NCBI GenBank assembly: GCA_913057985.1
Contig: CAJXPL010000012.1
Span: forward strand, 1 to 64,000
Origin: an uncultured Synechococcus sp.
GTDB lineage: Bacteria; Cyanobacteriota; Cyanobacteriia; PCC-6307; Cyanobiaceae
Direction of reading: 5' to 3'
DNA length: 64,000 nucleotides
Numbering within the stretch: position 1 is the stretch's first letter; every line of letters starts with the position of its first letter. The notes under the pieces were generated by a model. That model saw only the letters and a list, made by a program, of their open reading frames with translations, ran no database searches and was not told where the DNA came from. This document shows, one piece after another, positions 22,941-41,550 of the stretch. The position numbers and the translations under genes were made by a program.

Positions 22941-23882
22941 TTGATCCCGCTCTGTTCTCCAGAGGAGGCCCGTCGGCCCACTGCCCTGGCGCTGGGAAGC
23001 TTCGATGGCCTGCATGCAGGCCACCGCCGCGTGATCGCCGAGGCCATTCAGGACAGCCCGAAGGAGGCCGTTGCCTCGGTGGTGAGCTTCTGGCCCCATC
23101 CCCGTGAGGTGCTGTTCGGGGAGGCACGCCTGAGGCTAGATCTACCCAGCGAAAAACTCGCTCTGCTCGAACCCCTGGGGATCCAGCAGCTCGTGCTGGT
23201 GCCCTTCACCCGCGAGCTCGCTCAGCTGAGTGCCGAAGATTTCGTCAGCAGCGTGCTGCTGAACACACTTCAAGCCAGGCGCATTGCCGTGGGCACCAAC
23301 TTCCGCTTCGGTCATCAGCGGCGCGGTGACGCCGAGATGCTGGAACGGCTAGCGGCTCGCAACGGCGTTGAGGTGAAGGTGGTGCCCATCGTTGAAGACC
23401 AAGGGGGTCGGATGAGCAGCAGCCGCATCCGCGCGGCTCTCGATCAAGGGGATCTAGCGACCGCCAAAGCCTTGCTGGGCCGGGCCTACCGCTTTCAGGG
23501 ACGGGTGGTGCGGGGCCGAGGCCTGGGCCGTGAACTGGGCTGGCCCACCGCCAATCTCCAGGTGGATGGGCGAAAGGCCTTGCCAGGGCTTGGCGTCTAC
23601 GCCGCCTGGGCCCAACTGGATGGGGATGGCGATCGTCTGCCGGCTGTGATGAACCTCGGGCCCCAACCCACAATCGATCCCACATCTCCCTCAGCCGTGG
23701 AGGTGCACCTGCTGGATCAGAGCCTGGAGCTAGAGGGCAGGCAGCTGGGGGTGGAGCCGGTGCAGCGCTTGCGTGGCCAGACCAAATTCAGTGGACTCGA
23801 AGAGCTCAGCAGCCAGATCGGCCGCGACGCAGCCCAGGCCCGCGAGATTCTTCAGGCCGGCTCTCAGGCCACGGTCGGATAG
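22941..23882 (+). CDS. ribF: Bifunctional riboflavin kinase / FAD synthetase
   Basis: Makes FMN then FAD. N-terminal FAD synthetase: ALGSFDGLHAGHRRVIAEAI (HxGH-type), VVSFWPHPREVLF, GTNFRFGHQRRGD and MSSSRIRAALDQGDL; C-terminal kinase: GRAYRFQGRVVRGRGLGREL, GWPTANLQ and GVYAAWAQLDG, with NLGPQPTI. The reading frame is open further upstream, but homology begins here: I place a TTG start at 22941 (313 aa). The start codon is uncertain. Its 3' end overlaps a 30-codon gene on the other strand. Confidence 0.93.
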   Translation: MIPLCSPEEARRPTALALGSFDGLHAGHRRVIAEAIQDSPKEAVASVVSFWPHPREVLFGEARLRLDLPSEKLALLEPLGIQQLVLVPFTRELAQLSAEDFVSSVLLNTLQARRIAVGTNFRFGHQRRGDAEMLERLAARNGVEVKVVPIVEDQGGRMSSSRIRAALDQGDLATAKALLGRAYRFQGRVVRGRGLGRELGWPTANLQVDGRKALPGLGVYAAWAQLDGDGDRLPAVMNLGPQPTIDPTSPSAVEVHLLDQSLELEGRQLGVEPVQRLRGQTKFSGLEELSSQIGRDAAQAREILQAGSQATVG

Positions 23883-23956
23883 GCATTCACCAGCCCCCAG
23901 ACGATGAACACGCCGATGCCGCCGAGAAGGACGATTCCCCAGACCAGAACGTGCAT
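23864..23956 (-). CDS. 30-aa single-span membrane protein
   Basis: MHVLVWGIVLLGGIGVFIVW plus ten residues ending AYPTVA: one membrane helix with short polar ends. Size and layout resemble the small subunits of photosystems and cytochrome b6f, but it is not PetG, PetN, PetL, PsbM, PsbX, PsaI or PsaM as I know them. It overlaps the ribF stop by 19 bases, convergent. An in-frame ATG 9 codons upstream (23983) would give 39 aa. Real status unproven. Confidence 0.5.
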   Translation of the reverse strand: MHVLVWGIVLLGGIGVFIVWGLVNAYPTVA

Positions 23957-24016
23957 GGTGCTCTCAGAACCACCGTTCTCCATGACCGACGCCGAAACCG
24001 TTGCCCTCAGGGTGCC

Positions 24017-25075
24017 ATGAATCCAACCCCAAGCGAGACATCCCTGGATCCACGGGTGGCACGCCTGATCGACGCCAACCTCGACCGTGCCCGGGAAGGA
24101 CTGAGGGTGGTTGAGGACTGGTGCCGCTTCGGGCTGGAGCAACAGGATCTGGTGGTGCGCCTCAAGGACTGGCGTCAACGGCTGGGGCGACTCCATCACG
24201 ACAGCTACAAGCAGGCCCGCTCCACCAGCACCGACACCGGCGCCGGACTGGAGCATCCGGCCCAACTCGATCGCCACAGCCCCGACCACGTGGTGGCGGC
24301 CAACTGCGCCCGGGTGCAGGAGGCGTTGCGGGTGCTGGAGGAGTACGGCCGCTCCATCGATCCTGCGCTGGCCGCTGAAGCCGCAGAGATCCGCTACGGG
24401 CTTTACGACCTGGAGGTGACCTGCCTCAACGCCACCCTGGGAGCACGGCGACGCAACAAACTCAAGGATGCTCGCCTTTGCCTGATCACGACCCCCTGCG
24501 ATGACCTGACCGATCGGGTGGAGGCCGCCCTGCGGAACGGCGTGGGGATGGTGCAGTACCGCTGCAAAGCGGGGAACGACCGCGAACGCCTGCGGGAAGC
24601 TCAGCAGCTCAGGCAGCTCTGCAACCGCTTCGGGGCGCTGTTGTTCATCAATGACCGTGTGGACCTGGCCCTGGCGGTGGATGCGGATGGGGTGCACCTG
24701 GGCCAGGACGACATGCCCAGCGAGGTGGCCCGCGATCTGTTGGGCGTTGATCGTCTGCTGGGCCGCAGCACCCACAGCATCGATCAGGTTCATCAGGCTC
24801 AGCAGGAGCCAATCGACTATCTCGGATTTGGCCCGATCCATTGCACGGCCGTCAAACCCGAGCGGAAGCCTGTTGGTGTGGAGCTCCTGGCGCAGGCCAC
24901 TGCGATCAGCCAACGCCCCGTCTTCGCCATCGGTGGAATCACCTCGGCCAACCTGCCGGCCCTGCTCACGGCAGGTGGCCAGCGCGCGGCCGTGATCGGC
25001 GCGATCATGCACGCAGATGACAGCGGTCTGGCCTCGCGGCAACTGCTCCAGCAGCTGGACCACGCCACGTTCTGA
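24017..25075 (+). CDS. thiE: Thiamine phosphate synthase (cyanobacterial, with N-terminal extension)
   Basis: Couples HMP-PP and thiazole phosphate to thiamine phosphate. Residues 1-140 are the extra helical domain typical of cyanobacterial ThiE (ANLDRAREGLRVVEDWCRFG; ARVQEALRVLEEYGR). The TIM barrel follows: MVQYRCKAG, LFINDRVDLALAVDADGVHL, GQDDMPSE, DYLGFGPIHCTAVKP, FAIGGI. The ATG at 24017 gives 352 aa and avoids overlap with the 30-codon gene. Three bases before thiS. Confidence 0.95.
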   Translation: MNPTPSETSLDPRVARLIDANLDRAREGLRVVEDWCRFGLEQQDLVVRLKDWRQRLGRLHHDSYKQARSTSTDTGAGLEHPAQLDRHSPDHVVAANCARVQEALRVLEEYGRSIDPALAAEAAEIRYGLYDLEVTCLNATLGARRRNKLKDARLCLITTPCDDLTDRVEAALRNGVGMVQYRCKAGNDRERLREAQQLRQLCNRFGALLFINDRVDLALAVDADGVHLGQDDMPSEVARDLLGVDRLLGRSTHSIDQVHQAQQEPIDYLGFGPIHCTAVKPERKPVGVELLAQATAISQRPVFAIGGITSANLPALLTAGGQRAAVIGAIMHADDSGLASRQLLQQLDHATF

Positions 25076-25078
25076 GCC

Positions 25079-25297
25079 ATGCCTCTCACCCTGATGGTCA
25101 ACGGTGAAACCCGCGTGCTGGATCCAGCACCGGATCCCGCCAGCCTGGCGGCGGTTGTTGCCTTGCTGGCCAACAACCCCCAGCTGGTGGTGGCCGAGCA
25201 CAACGGTGTGATCGCACCCCGCAGCCGCTGGGACAGCATCGTGGTGAAGGATGACGACACCCTTGAGATCGTCACCATCGTTGGTGGTGGTTCCTAG
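25079..25297 (+). CDS. thiS: Sulfur carrier protein ThiS
   Basis: Carries sulfur as a C-terminal thiocarboxylate for the thiazole of thiamine. 72 aa ubiquitin-like fold (LTLMVNGETRVLD; IVVKDDDTLEIVTIVGGGS). The usual terminal Gly-Gly is followed here by one Ser (GGGS), so the reactive glycine is not the last residue as encoded. Directly after thiE; thiG is not in the window. Confidence 0.88.
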   Translation: MPLTLMVNGETRVLDPAPDPASLAAVVALLANNPQLVVAEHNGVIAPRSRWDSIVVKDDDTLEIVTIVGGGS

Positions 25298-38884: not shown

Positions 38885-39823
38885 TCAGATGCCGCTCGGG
38901 AGTCGCCGGGTGAGGTTGCGCAACTTCCGCAGCGCCTTGAGTTCAACCTGACGCACCCGCTCGCGGGACACCTCCATCAGGCGTCCGATTTCAGCAAGCG
39001 TGTGGCGTTCGTTGCCCTCAAGCCCGAAACGCATGCGCAGAACATGCTGCTCCTGTTCGCTCAGGTGACTCAGCCAGCGGCCCAGCTGTTCGTGATGAAT
39101 CCGCTGTTCAACGATGTCGAGCGGTTCATCAAGGGATGAATCAGCAATCAGATCCCCGAGGAAGCTACGACCCTCCTCACCGTTGACGGGAGCATCCAGG
39201 CTGCTGGTGGTTAGGGCCTGACGCAGAAGCGAATCGAGCTCATCCAAGGGGATGTCCATGGCTTCAGCGATCTCGACACGGCTGGGCATGGCGCCGAGCT
39301 TGTGGGCCAGATCAAGACTGACCTTGCGAATCGTGGTGAGCCGCTCACTGAGATGAACGGGAAGACGAATCGTGCGCGACTGGCAGGCAATGGCCCGGGT
39401 CATGCTCTGGCGGATCCACCAGAAGGCATAGGTGGAAAACTTGTAACCACGGGTGGGATCAAATTTCTCAACAGCACGCTCGAGGCCCAGGGAGCCCTCC
39501 TGAATCAGATCGAGCAATTCCAGACCCTTACCTTGATATTTCTTGGCGACGCTGACCACAAGACGAAGATTGGCCTTCATCATCCGCTCTTTGGCGCGGC
39601 GACCGATCCTCAGAAGACGGCGCTGTGCCGTGGTGAGTTCTCCATCCTCGAACTCACGGGAACCGTCTTCGGTAAGCGCCATCATCGCTTGCACCTGATT
39701 GCCCAGCTCGATTTCTTCAGCTGGGGTCAGCAGTGGAATTCTGCCGATGGTGGCGAGATACCAACTGACGGGGTCGCTGCTGCGCCGACGTTGCGTCTCC
39801 AGCGGCTTGGAAGCTGTGGACAC
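38885..39823 (-). CDS. Group 2 RpoD-like sigma factor
   Basis: 312 aa. Sigma region 1.2 DPVSWYLATIGRIPLLTPAE, region 2 NLRLVVSVAKKYQGKGLELL and KFSTYAFWWIRQSMTRAIAC, region 3 SERLTTIRKVSLDLAHKLG, region 4 LSEQEQHVLRMRFGLEGNER and EIGRLMEVSRERVRQVELKA. Lacks the long region 1.1 of the primary SigA, so it is a non-essential group 2 factor. A 179-bp AT-rich leader (39824-40002) lies upstream. Confidence 0.93.
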   Translation of the reverse strand: MSTASKPLETQRRRSSDPVSWYLATIGRIPLLTPAEEIELGNQVQAMMALTEDGSREFEDGELTTAQRRLLRIGRRAKERMMKANLRLVVSVAKKYQGKGLELLDLIQEGSLGLERAVEKFDPTRGYKFSTYAFWWIRQSMTRAIACQSRTIRLPVHLSERLTTIRKVSLDLAHKLGAMPSRVEIAEAMDIPLDELDSLLRQALTTSSLDAPVNGEEGRSFLGDLIADSSLDEPLDIVEQRIHHEQLGRWLSHLSEQEQHVLRMRFGLEGNERHTLAEIGRLMEVSRERVRQVELKALRKLRNLTRRLPSGI

Positions 39824-40002
39824 CTTGGGTGCTGCGGAAGTGAGTTGACTTTCCTACGAACAGAAAGAATGTCGAAGTGTTTTCAGCAACCCTTCAGATT
39901 CAGAACAGCAAACCGCAATATTTCAGATTTGCGAAAGATTTAAAAACCAACAAAAGCTCTTTTGGGACCTGCAAGCCGAGGCAATCAAAACGAATCATTT
40001 GT
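39824..40002. promoter_or_regulatory. AT-rich intergenic leader of the sigma factor gene
   Basis: 179 bases, much more AT-rich than the flanking genes, between the sigma factor start and the nnr stop. It should hold the sigma promoter (minus strand). GTTCA and TGAAC (40001-40018 region) form a weak inverted pair. No clear -10/-35 set can be fixed. Confidence 0.4.
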
Positions 40003-41550
40003 TCAGACTTCGTTGAACATCGTTGTTTGCTTTTTCTGACACCGCGCTGTATTGATTTTCAAACAATCCGCAATTGTTGAAGCATCACTGGAGCGAGCAC
40101 GAGCTGCCGCCAAACCGTGCAAAGCCGCAGCGGCAGCGAAGCTTTCAAGCCCGGGCTGCTGTTGTGCCGCAACTCCCTGGGCGCCCCAACCGGTGGCAAA
40201 ACCGGCCAGCAGATCACCCAGGCCGGTGCGGGCCACATGGGGGCTCGTGGATGTGAGCACCACCGCCGCACCCGATGGATCAGCCAGCACGGAATGCGCA
40301 CCCTTCAGCAAAATGCAGCAACCGCTGCAGCGGGCTGCGGAAATCGCCTTTTCCAGCGCGTCACCTGCTCCATAGTCTGGAAACAACCGCGCGAACTCGG
40401 CCGCATGGGGCGTGAGCCAGGTGGGCCCCCGCCGCTTCAACAACCAGCGCCACCCCTGCGGACTGGCCGCCAGACCGTTGATGCCATCGGCATCGAGCAC
40501 CAGCAAACCGGCGACGCTGAGCATCTGCTCCGACCACTGGTTCCACCAATGGGTGGGCTCCCCCAGACCGGGACCGACCAAAACCGCATCCAGCCGCTCT
40601 GGAATCACCCCGTCCTCCAGTTGCATCACCTCCGGCAACACCTGCCACAAGCTGGATTGAAGACGGGGCGGCACAACGGCCTGAACGCAGCCGCAGCCAC
40701 TGGCCATGGCCCCCCGCAGCGCCAGATGTGCTGCGCCGGGGTAGCGATCACTGCCCGCCACCACCAGGCAGCGGCCGCGTTCGTACTTCATCGCTGTGGG
40801 CGGCAGCGGCGGTAACGGGGCCGAGCTTGCCTCTCTCACCGGCAGGCGGCGCGGCAAGACCGCAGCGGCATTGCCCACCGCCGCTGGCGGCAAGCCCAGA
40901 TCGACCCGCACCAGCGCACCCACCCAGGGGCGGGCCGGGTCCAGACACAACCCGCGCTTCAACCAGCCAACGCTGAGGGTGACCGAGGCACAGGCTGCCT
41001 GCTCGCCCAACACGGTTCCCTGGTCGGAGCAAAGGCCCGACGGAACATCCAGGCTGATCAAGGCCCCAGGCCGAAGCTGCTGGCGACGCCGGAACAAATC
41101 CGCCAAGCACTCAGGCAGGGGCCGACTCTGGCCGAGCCCGAACACCGCATCAAGCCACAGTGCGGCTCCGCCGGGGTCGGGCTCGTCAGCCAGGCGCTGC
41201 AGACCAAGCCACTCGCCATGGCGCAGATGTTCAGCGGTGAGGGGCTTGCGAATCGGCAGGGGACACCACAAGGACACCTCAACGCCAGCCAGGTGCAACT
41301 CCCGAGCCACAACGAGACCATCGCCACCGTTGTGACCGGGGCCCACCAGGACAACCACGCCCTGGCGCAGCAGATCCCGGCGCGCCAGCAGCCAGGCCGC
41401 CATGGCCAGCCCCACTTTCTCCATCAAGGCCGCAACAGGCATGCCGCTGTCGAACAACCTCTGTTCGAAGGCGGCCATGGACGCGGCATCCACAAGCAGA
41501 TGATCGGAATCAGCGGGAGGCCACACCAGTTGCGGTTGCCGGGACCTCAC
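40003..41550 (-). CDS. nnr: Bifunctional NAD(P)H-hydrate epimerase/dehydratase
   Basis: Repairs hydrated NADH/NADPH. The N-terminal epimerase half (YjeF_N) has [40 protein letters not shown] and [13 protein letters not shown]; the C-terminal ADP-dependent dehydratase has [59 protein letters not shown] and [16 protein letters not shown]. The frame opens at 41598, which would overlap the mnmA start; the GTG at 41550 avoids that (515 aa). The tail after about residue 500 is unusually polar. Confidence 0.92.

Follow-up and report, generated by a model that had tools for sequence, protein, structure and literature searches.

Organization of the ribF-thiE locus

The window analysed here, a stretch of 64,000 nt from the genome of an uncultured Synechococcus sp., carries on its plus strand a ribF gene (22941..23882) encoding FAD synthetase and riboflavin kinase domains (Pfam PF06574 and PF01687), for which we infer an in-frame TTG as start codon, and a thiE-type gene (24017..25075) encoding thiamine monophosphate synthase with an N-terminal ThiD2 domain (PF02581 and PF17792). 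Directly after thiE, on the same strand, a 72-aa open reading frame (ORF) at 25079-25297 corresponds to ThiS (PF02597, E = 3.8e-12).

Between ribF and thiE, the minus-strand frame 23956..23864 is translated into MHVLVWGIVLLGGIGVFIVWGLVNAYPTVA followed by a stop. An earlier note had described it as a 30-aa single-span protein overlapping the end of ribF; the frame, the span and a tail-to-tail overlap of 19 nt with the end of ribF (stop codon 23880-23882) were all found, but the proposed length and start proved too short. An ATG at 23983, located 27 nt upstream of the Met of the 30-aa version, is present in all 50 loci examined, and this start together with the conservation of the upstream segment sets the gene at 23983..23864 (minus strand, stop included) and its product at 39 aa (MENGGSESTMHVLVWGIVLLGGIGVFIVWGLVNAYPTVA), namely MENGGSEST-MHVLVWGIVLLGGIGVFIVWGLVNAYPTVA. 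The 30-aa stretch corresponds to this protein from its internal Met10 and comprises the membrane span and the WGLxNAYP tail.

As read from the sequence, the 39-aa protein contains a single hydrophobic stretch, in keeping with the size and topology of NdhQ (about 40-46 aa and one membrane span). Residues M1, G16, G21, W29, A34 and Y35 (39-aa numbering) are invariant in an alignment of 30 sequences. The N-terminus of close homologues (L001-L056, paralogue loci excluded) is typically of the form M[ED]N[GS]GS[ED]S[TPS]-MHVLVWG..., and it is variable in more distant members of the family, where 9 of 90 sequences have no suitable ATG within the 20 upstream residues inspected and may use other start codons. 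The overlap with ribF could be measured in 29 loci of the genus: 24 have 19 nt, four have 4 nt and one has none. The start codons of the small gene and of thiE are divergent and only 33 nt apart, so a promoter of the former would sit either in this gap or inside thiE; neither a sigma-70-like nor a terminator-like site was found in the region 23700-24200.

Identification of the ORF as ndhQ

Single-sequence searches of Pfam, NCBIfam and PDB with the window ORF gave no match, and the assignment depends on profiles. Profile A1, built from 30 members of the family and searched against all PDB sequences, matched chains 6khi_Q, 6l7o_Q and 6hum_Q (E = 2.2e-8, 1.2e-7 and 1e-5, respectively), all named NdhQ, after which only noise followed (E≥7). 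The alignment begins at residue 1 of the 39-aa form and contains no gaps. The statement of the earlier note that the protein matches none familiar to its author consequently fails for databases, as the family profile recovers the solved Thermosynechococcus NdhQ chains, while its suggestion of a minor photosynthetic-complex subunit was right in kind, the subunit very probably being NdhQ of photosynthetic complex I (NDH-1L). That the gene is easy to miss was well judged: it has 39 codons, overlaps ribF and is left unnamed by any Pfam or NCBIfam model tested, the 30 A1 members producing weak unrelated matches only (best 0.0037 and 0.0052).

Profile A3 consists of 22 NdhQ-type proteins from other families and of no sequence from the family of the window ORF, its rows having themselves been gathered with A1 in other families of the class. 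These proteins are of the type MSDLNRGIMKFDGADSPxxVxxSAVLILGxIAALIxWALxxAYA, and their profile matched NdhQ in PDB at 1.8e-27. Searched against the genome of the window, A3 placed the window ORF first (E = 2.0e-5, at 23983-23879), followed by a paralogue (0.07) and then by a match at 0.72, which makes the window ORF the best NdhQ candidate of its genome. The two profiles aligned with each other in hhalign at E = 1e-14 over 36 columns. By these comparisons the window ORF is homologous to experimentally identified NdhQ.

Compared with NdhQ of Thermosynechococcus (chain Q of 6khi/6khj, 6l7o/6l7p, 6nbx/6nby and 6hum), the window protein aligns without gaps over 36 residues from its start Met and shares a D/E-S-type N-terminus before a small-residue helix, a single span and a W[GA]LxxAY end. 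The differences lie at both termini, with the preceding 8-9 residues of the MSDLNRGI type lacking in the window ORF, and the tail reading WGLxNAYP instead of WALxxAYA. The MSDLNRGI segment is near-invariant in A3 and missing in A1; being common outside the family to which the genome of the window belongs, it was not counted as defining. Genome G143, from the same family, provides a bridge: it encodes RGIMRFDGADNP ahead of the helix and reaches an A3 score of 7.7e-22, so that its protein appears intermediate between the short and long NdhQ forms. The alignments point to a diverged form of NdhQ in this family, with a shortened N-terminus that starts at the Met equivalent to residue 9 of most other NdhQ proteins. 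The gene context is also distinct: the window ORF has ribF on one side and thiE on the other, and in 26 loci of other families neither gene was found over flanks of about 0.2-1.6 kb.

In the same class, 101 of the 104 rows matching A1 at E≤1 lie below 1e-3, and the best matches in other classes of the phylum were 4.9e-4 (with a stop inside), 0.005 and 0.009, the remainder being weaker. Those other classes are non-photosynthetic. The occurrence of the family, in photosynthetic cyanobacteria and not in the non-photosynthetic classes, agrees with what excerpts of a published survey indicate (PMC12038448). The expected partners are likewise encoded in the genome of the window: NdhF at G000:C19 40783-42744, scoring above the TIGR01974 cut-off, and, adjoining it at 39180-40604, a weaker antiporter-type match read as NdhD. 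Taken together, we consider it very nearly certain that the window ORF is ndhQ, encoding a subunit of cyanobacterial NDH-1L that is known but readily overlooked, and whose membrane helix would dock onto NdhD1 and stabilise the complex.

Conservation, selection and synteny

The earlier note had named a frame broken in close relatives as the result that would speak against the gene. Homologues were found in all 34 genomes searched in the genus, among them that of the window (best E ≤4.4e-10 in each), and the frame is intact throughout, with no stop inside the best match. Within the whole family the ORF was matched in 167 of 201 genomes (E≤0.01); a stop falls inside the match in some rows, and the four that were read (G145, G192, G047 and G124) simply end at NAYP, the apparent stops arising because the alignment ran beyond the natural one. 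In 30 loci of the genus, the numbers of variable codons at positions 1, 2 and 3 were 17, 6 and 32 of 37, respectively, and the pairwise dN/dS was about 0.06 (ratio of means; median dS 1.11, median dN 0.055), the pattern expected when a gene is translated and strongly constrained by purifying selection.

The arrangement is equally stable. When one locus was taken from each of 91 genomes, ribF was convergent and thiE divergent around ndhQ in 89, each neighbour being syntenic in 90 of 91; the two remaining loci lie at a contig edge or on a short fetched fragment.

A paralogue in the genus and lineages showing no ndhQ

A paralogue of the form MARxLQ...WTAVxFASITALVxWGxxNAYP is encoded in the same genome on contig C15 (2257-2385; L031 and L163), with further loci at L182-L191. 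It ends in WGxxNAYP or NAYS, was present in all 11 genomes of the genus drawn and measures 43-51 aa in the seven copies read, which come from six genomes of the genus; when the window sequence alone served as query, a second match, in some cases weak, was obtained in 25 of 34 genus genomes. The paralogue and NdhQ profiles find each other; the paralogue profile retrieved neither NdhQ from PDB nor any relative from viral sequences. Its neighbourhood differs between lineages (10 loci), with the exception of two copies of genome G021, located in a shared duplicated segment, and of L190 and L191, which belong to another genus, represent a diverged form and have common neighbours.

Certain lineages show no ndhQ. 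Genus g17, with AT-rich genomes of 1.6-1.7 Mb, which we take to be probably high-light Prochlorococcus, gave no A1 match at E≤1 in any of 12 genomes. In the nine genomes whose locus was read (L131-L133, L135, L136, L138 and L363-L365), no more than about ten bases separate the ribF stop from the start of thiE, and a local search of these nine ribF-thiE loci revealed no NdhQ-type frame that stands out, the best match (0.068) lying away from the junction. All nine keep an NdhF above the cut-off. Weak A3 matches were obtained in eight of the nine (E 0.28-0.77), six of which were read: three had no W..AY end and scored about 0.001 in a local search of limited size, and three were broken by stops; they were taken as chance and rejected as NdhQ. 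In genus g5, genomes G037, G120 and G142 (L129, L366 and L130) keep NdhF and yielded A3 noise only (E 0.65-2.5), either no A4 match or one at 0.82 (A4 being the viral profile described below), and again noise at the ribF-thiE junction; G093 of the same genus carries ndhQ. Genome G118 (A3 0.34) also has no ribF match, and its lack of ndhQ may therefore reflect an assembly gap. As judged from these genomes, NdhQ appears not to be indispensable everywhere, since a related genus without a match retains NdhF.

Alternative interpretations

Short membrane helices can look alike through composition, and the window ORF might belong to photosystem I, photosystem II or cytochrome b6f as a small subunit that has yet to be named and that resembles NdhQ only in being hydrophobic. 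Its one span, some 20 residues long, its conservation within the photosynthetic class and the lack of a name in the curated families tested would suit such a subunit, but the PDB search with A1 returned no chain of these complexes up to E = 10, its three real matches being NdhQ and all else noise, and a profile made from NdhQ of other families finds no better match in the whole genome than this ORF. On the PDB result this possibility was rejected, and we regard it as highly unlikely. The paralogue on contig C15 could instead be the working NdhQ, with the window ORF doing something else in the same or a related complex. The two share the WGxxNAYP end, occur together in the 11 genus genomes drawn, and the paralogue profile aligns with A1 at E = 6.8e-11 and with A3 at 1.2e-5 (hhalign). 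Against the paralogue, the best that its profile finds in PDB is an unrelated regulator at 0.44, its A3 score is 0.07 versus 2e-5 for the window ORF, its strong matches (E≤1e-19) are limited to the genus and one genome of another, and its surroundings vary by lineage, whereas the window ORF is family-wide and syntenic. PDB matches, A3 score, distribution and neighbourhood thus all led to its rejection as the true NdhQ, which makes this exchange of roles extremely improbable.

There is, in addition, a practically negligible chance that the ORF is untranslated and that its conservation merely reflects the end of ribF and the upstream region of thiE. The frame does have 19 nt inside ribF and begins 33 nt from the thiE start codon; yet 101 of its 120 nt lie outside ribF, the codon-position bias and the dN/dS of about 0.06 are those of the ndhQ frame, and the related genus devoid of the ORF has thiE about ten bases past the ribF stop in 9/9 genomes read, an ORF-free junction which indicates that the neighbours do not need its DNA.

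NdhQ-like ORFs in cyanophages

When IMG/VR was searched with the family alignment, 112 related stretches could be confirmed, and 80 of these (L277-L356) were retained. They encode NdhQ-like ORFs of 26-33 aa, such as MTNLFISSFLLFGSIGLFIYWGLNNAYPH. Profile A4 was built exclusively from viral peptides (29 rows, with starts chosen by the analyst), 22 of which had been collected through an A1-derived pattern and so carry a selection bias; its match to the ORF in all 80 IMG/VR loci serves as a consistency check only, as those 22 rows come from the same loci. Against PDB, A4 placed the three NdhQ chains on top (0.0013, 0.0042 and 0.062; next 0.42), and in hhalign it aligned with A1 at 7e-18 and with A3 at 3e-9. 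In the genome of the window it recovered the window ORF (3.1e-9), the paralogue (9.9e-7) and then a match at 1.4. By the same measure of homology as applied to the window ORF, the phage ORFs are NdhQ-like. In support of a viral origin of the contigs, all 10 flanking ORFs tested, taken from eight loci, matched PHROGs.

Among 50,697 phage records, 75 matched either of two viral peptides (E≤10), all of them Synechococcus phage or cyanophage, with listed E-values of 4e-4 to 3, many individually weak; a third viral query reached 1e-5 in S-CAM9. Searched against the phage records, the full 39-aa host protein gave no match, and the viral queries alone find these ORFs. Six host, paralogue and phage peptides searched in PHROGs returned nothing except a weak match to phrog_13092 (E = 0.13). 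One phage query also matched a polymerase frame of an ssRNA phage, which at E = 5 was taken as chance. The ORF was unannotated in all seven phage records read (S-CAM4, S-CAM9, Sf-CH3, ACG-2014h, ACG-2014f, S-SRM01 and S-RIM12; L367-L373).

Five of these seven records have a gene for plastocyanin, PTOX or 6-phosphogluconate dehydrogenase in the 4-kb flank of the ORF. In the IMG/VR set, a distance rule placed petE, PTOX, gnd, tal or zwf immediately next to the ORF in 29 of the 80 loci, as in the arrangement petE-ORF-PTOX-gnd (L316 and L327). Pfam confirmed an alternative oxidase, a 6-phosphogluconate dehydrogenase and a transaldolase in three abutting loci. Some viral ORFs share a few bases with a neighbour, either at their start with the preceding stop or at their stop with the following start. 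In 42 of the 80 loci none of the genes looked for was found within the available flank, some of these lying instead near a nucleotide-sugar epimerase gene (L287 and L305). Structural genes gp14-gp18 flank the ORF in several isolates; the same queries that match four of the seven phage records found none near it in the 80 IMG/VR loci, even at E≤1e-3. Both these 42 loci and the gp14-gp18 pattern speak against a single phage cassette. The viral dN/dS values of 0.14 (68 close pairs), 0.30 (viral pairs) and 0.48 (pairs with dS<1) are all rough, being derived from 23-26 codons and affected by saturation.

Phage copies of NDH-1 subunits named in excerpts of the literature are ndhI, ndhD and ndhP (PMC10452541, PMC3877843), and the NdhQ-like ORFs are not among the phage NDH-1 genes named there. 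Titles and abstract openings, mostly from open-access literature, on NdhQ and phage, NdhQ and Prochlorococcus, and cyanophage NDH-1 report no phage NdhQ; NdhQ and phage met in a single paper, where the word occurs within the title of a reference.

Proposed role and implications

By homology with the Thermosynechococcus structures and published deletion work, we infer that the window protein would form one transmembrane helix docking on the side of NdhD1 opposite to NdhP and contacting NdhF1 and a bound beta-carotene. In this position it would staple the distal proton-pumping NdhD1/NdhF1 module onto NDH-1, yielding NDH-1L, the complex that serves cyclic electron flow and respiration as ferredoxin-plastoquinone oxidoreductase. 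Excerpts of the structural literature locate NdhP and NdhQ distally in the membrane arm, one on either side of NdhD and both beside beta-carotenes and lipids (PMC6992706, PMC7021789); there the two subunits sandwich NdhD and contact NdhF, the deletion of either disassembling NDH-1L (PMC6992706), and beta-carotene sits between NdhD1, NdhF1 and NdhQ (PMC7021789). Parts of a further source describe NdhP and NdhQ as membrane-arm stabilisers, with NdhQ added along with thylakoid-bearing cyanobacteria (PMC12038448). The ndhQ gene of Synechocystis 6803 (Norf6, 46 aa), likened here through its description and length in an excerpt of PMC5126843, is likewise a small, late-recognised gene of an NDH-1L subunit.

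The window ORF belongs to a known family and is worth annotating. The ndhQ of picocyanobacteria may already be on record, as the survey in PMC12038448, to judge from the excerpts, includes WH8102 and CCMP1375; named records of the family include many Synechococcus and Prochlorococcus genomes. The curated models tested fail to recognise this subunit of a major electron-transport complex; the present assignment gives it a name and a correct start, and its fixed placement between ribF and thiE offers a handle for annotating ndhQ across the family. Genus g17, in which NdhF is kept and no NdhQ was seen, provides a natural test of the necessity of this subunit.

We see about an even chance that viruses of marine and freshwater cyanobacteria possess, as an auxiliary metabolic gene that has escaped notice, a stripped-down NdhQ of their own, whose product would be exchanged into the NDH-1L of the host in the course of infection and hold the NdhD1/NdhF1 module together. 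Such a protein would consist only of the membrane helix and the WGLxNAYP tail, would often be encoded inside electron-flow and pentose-phosphate cassettes and, once in host NDH-1L, would sustain cyclic and respiratory electron flow and the ATP supply; the roaming paralogue of the host may belong to the same phage-host exchange. The viral family remains a case built from homology and context, and is the part likely to surprise a specialist. Phage NdhQ-like ORFs would add the stability of NDH-1L to the functions that phages may tune, and such micro-ORFs suggest that auxiliary genes of under 40 codons go unnoticed.
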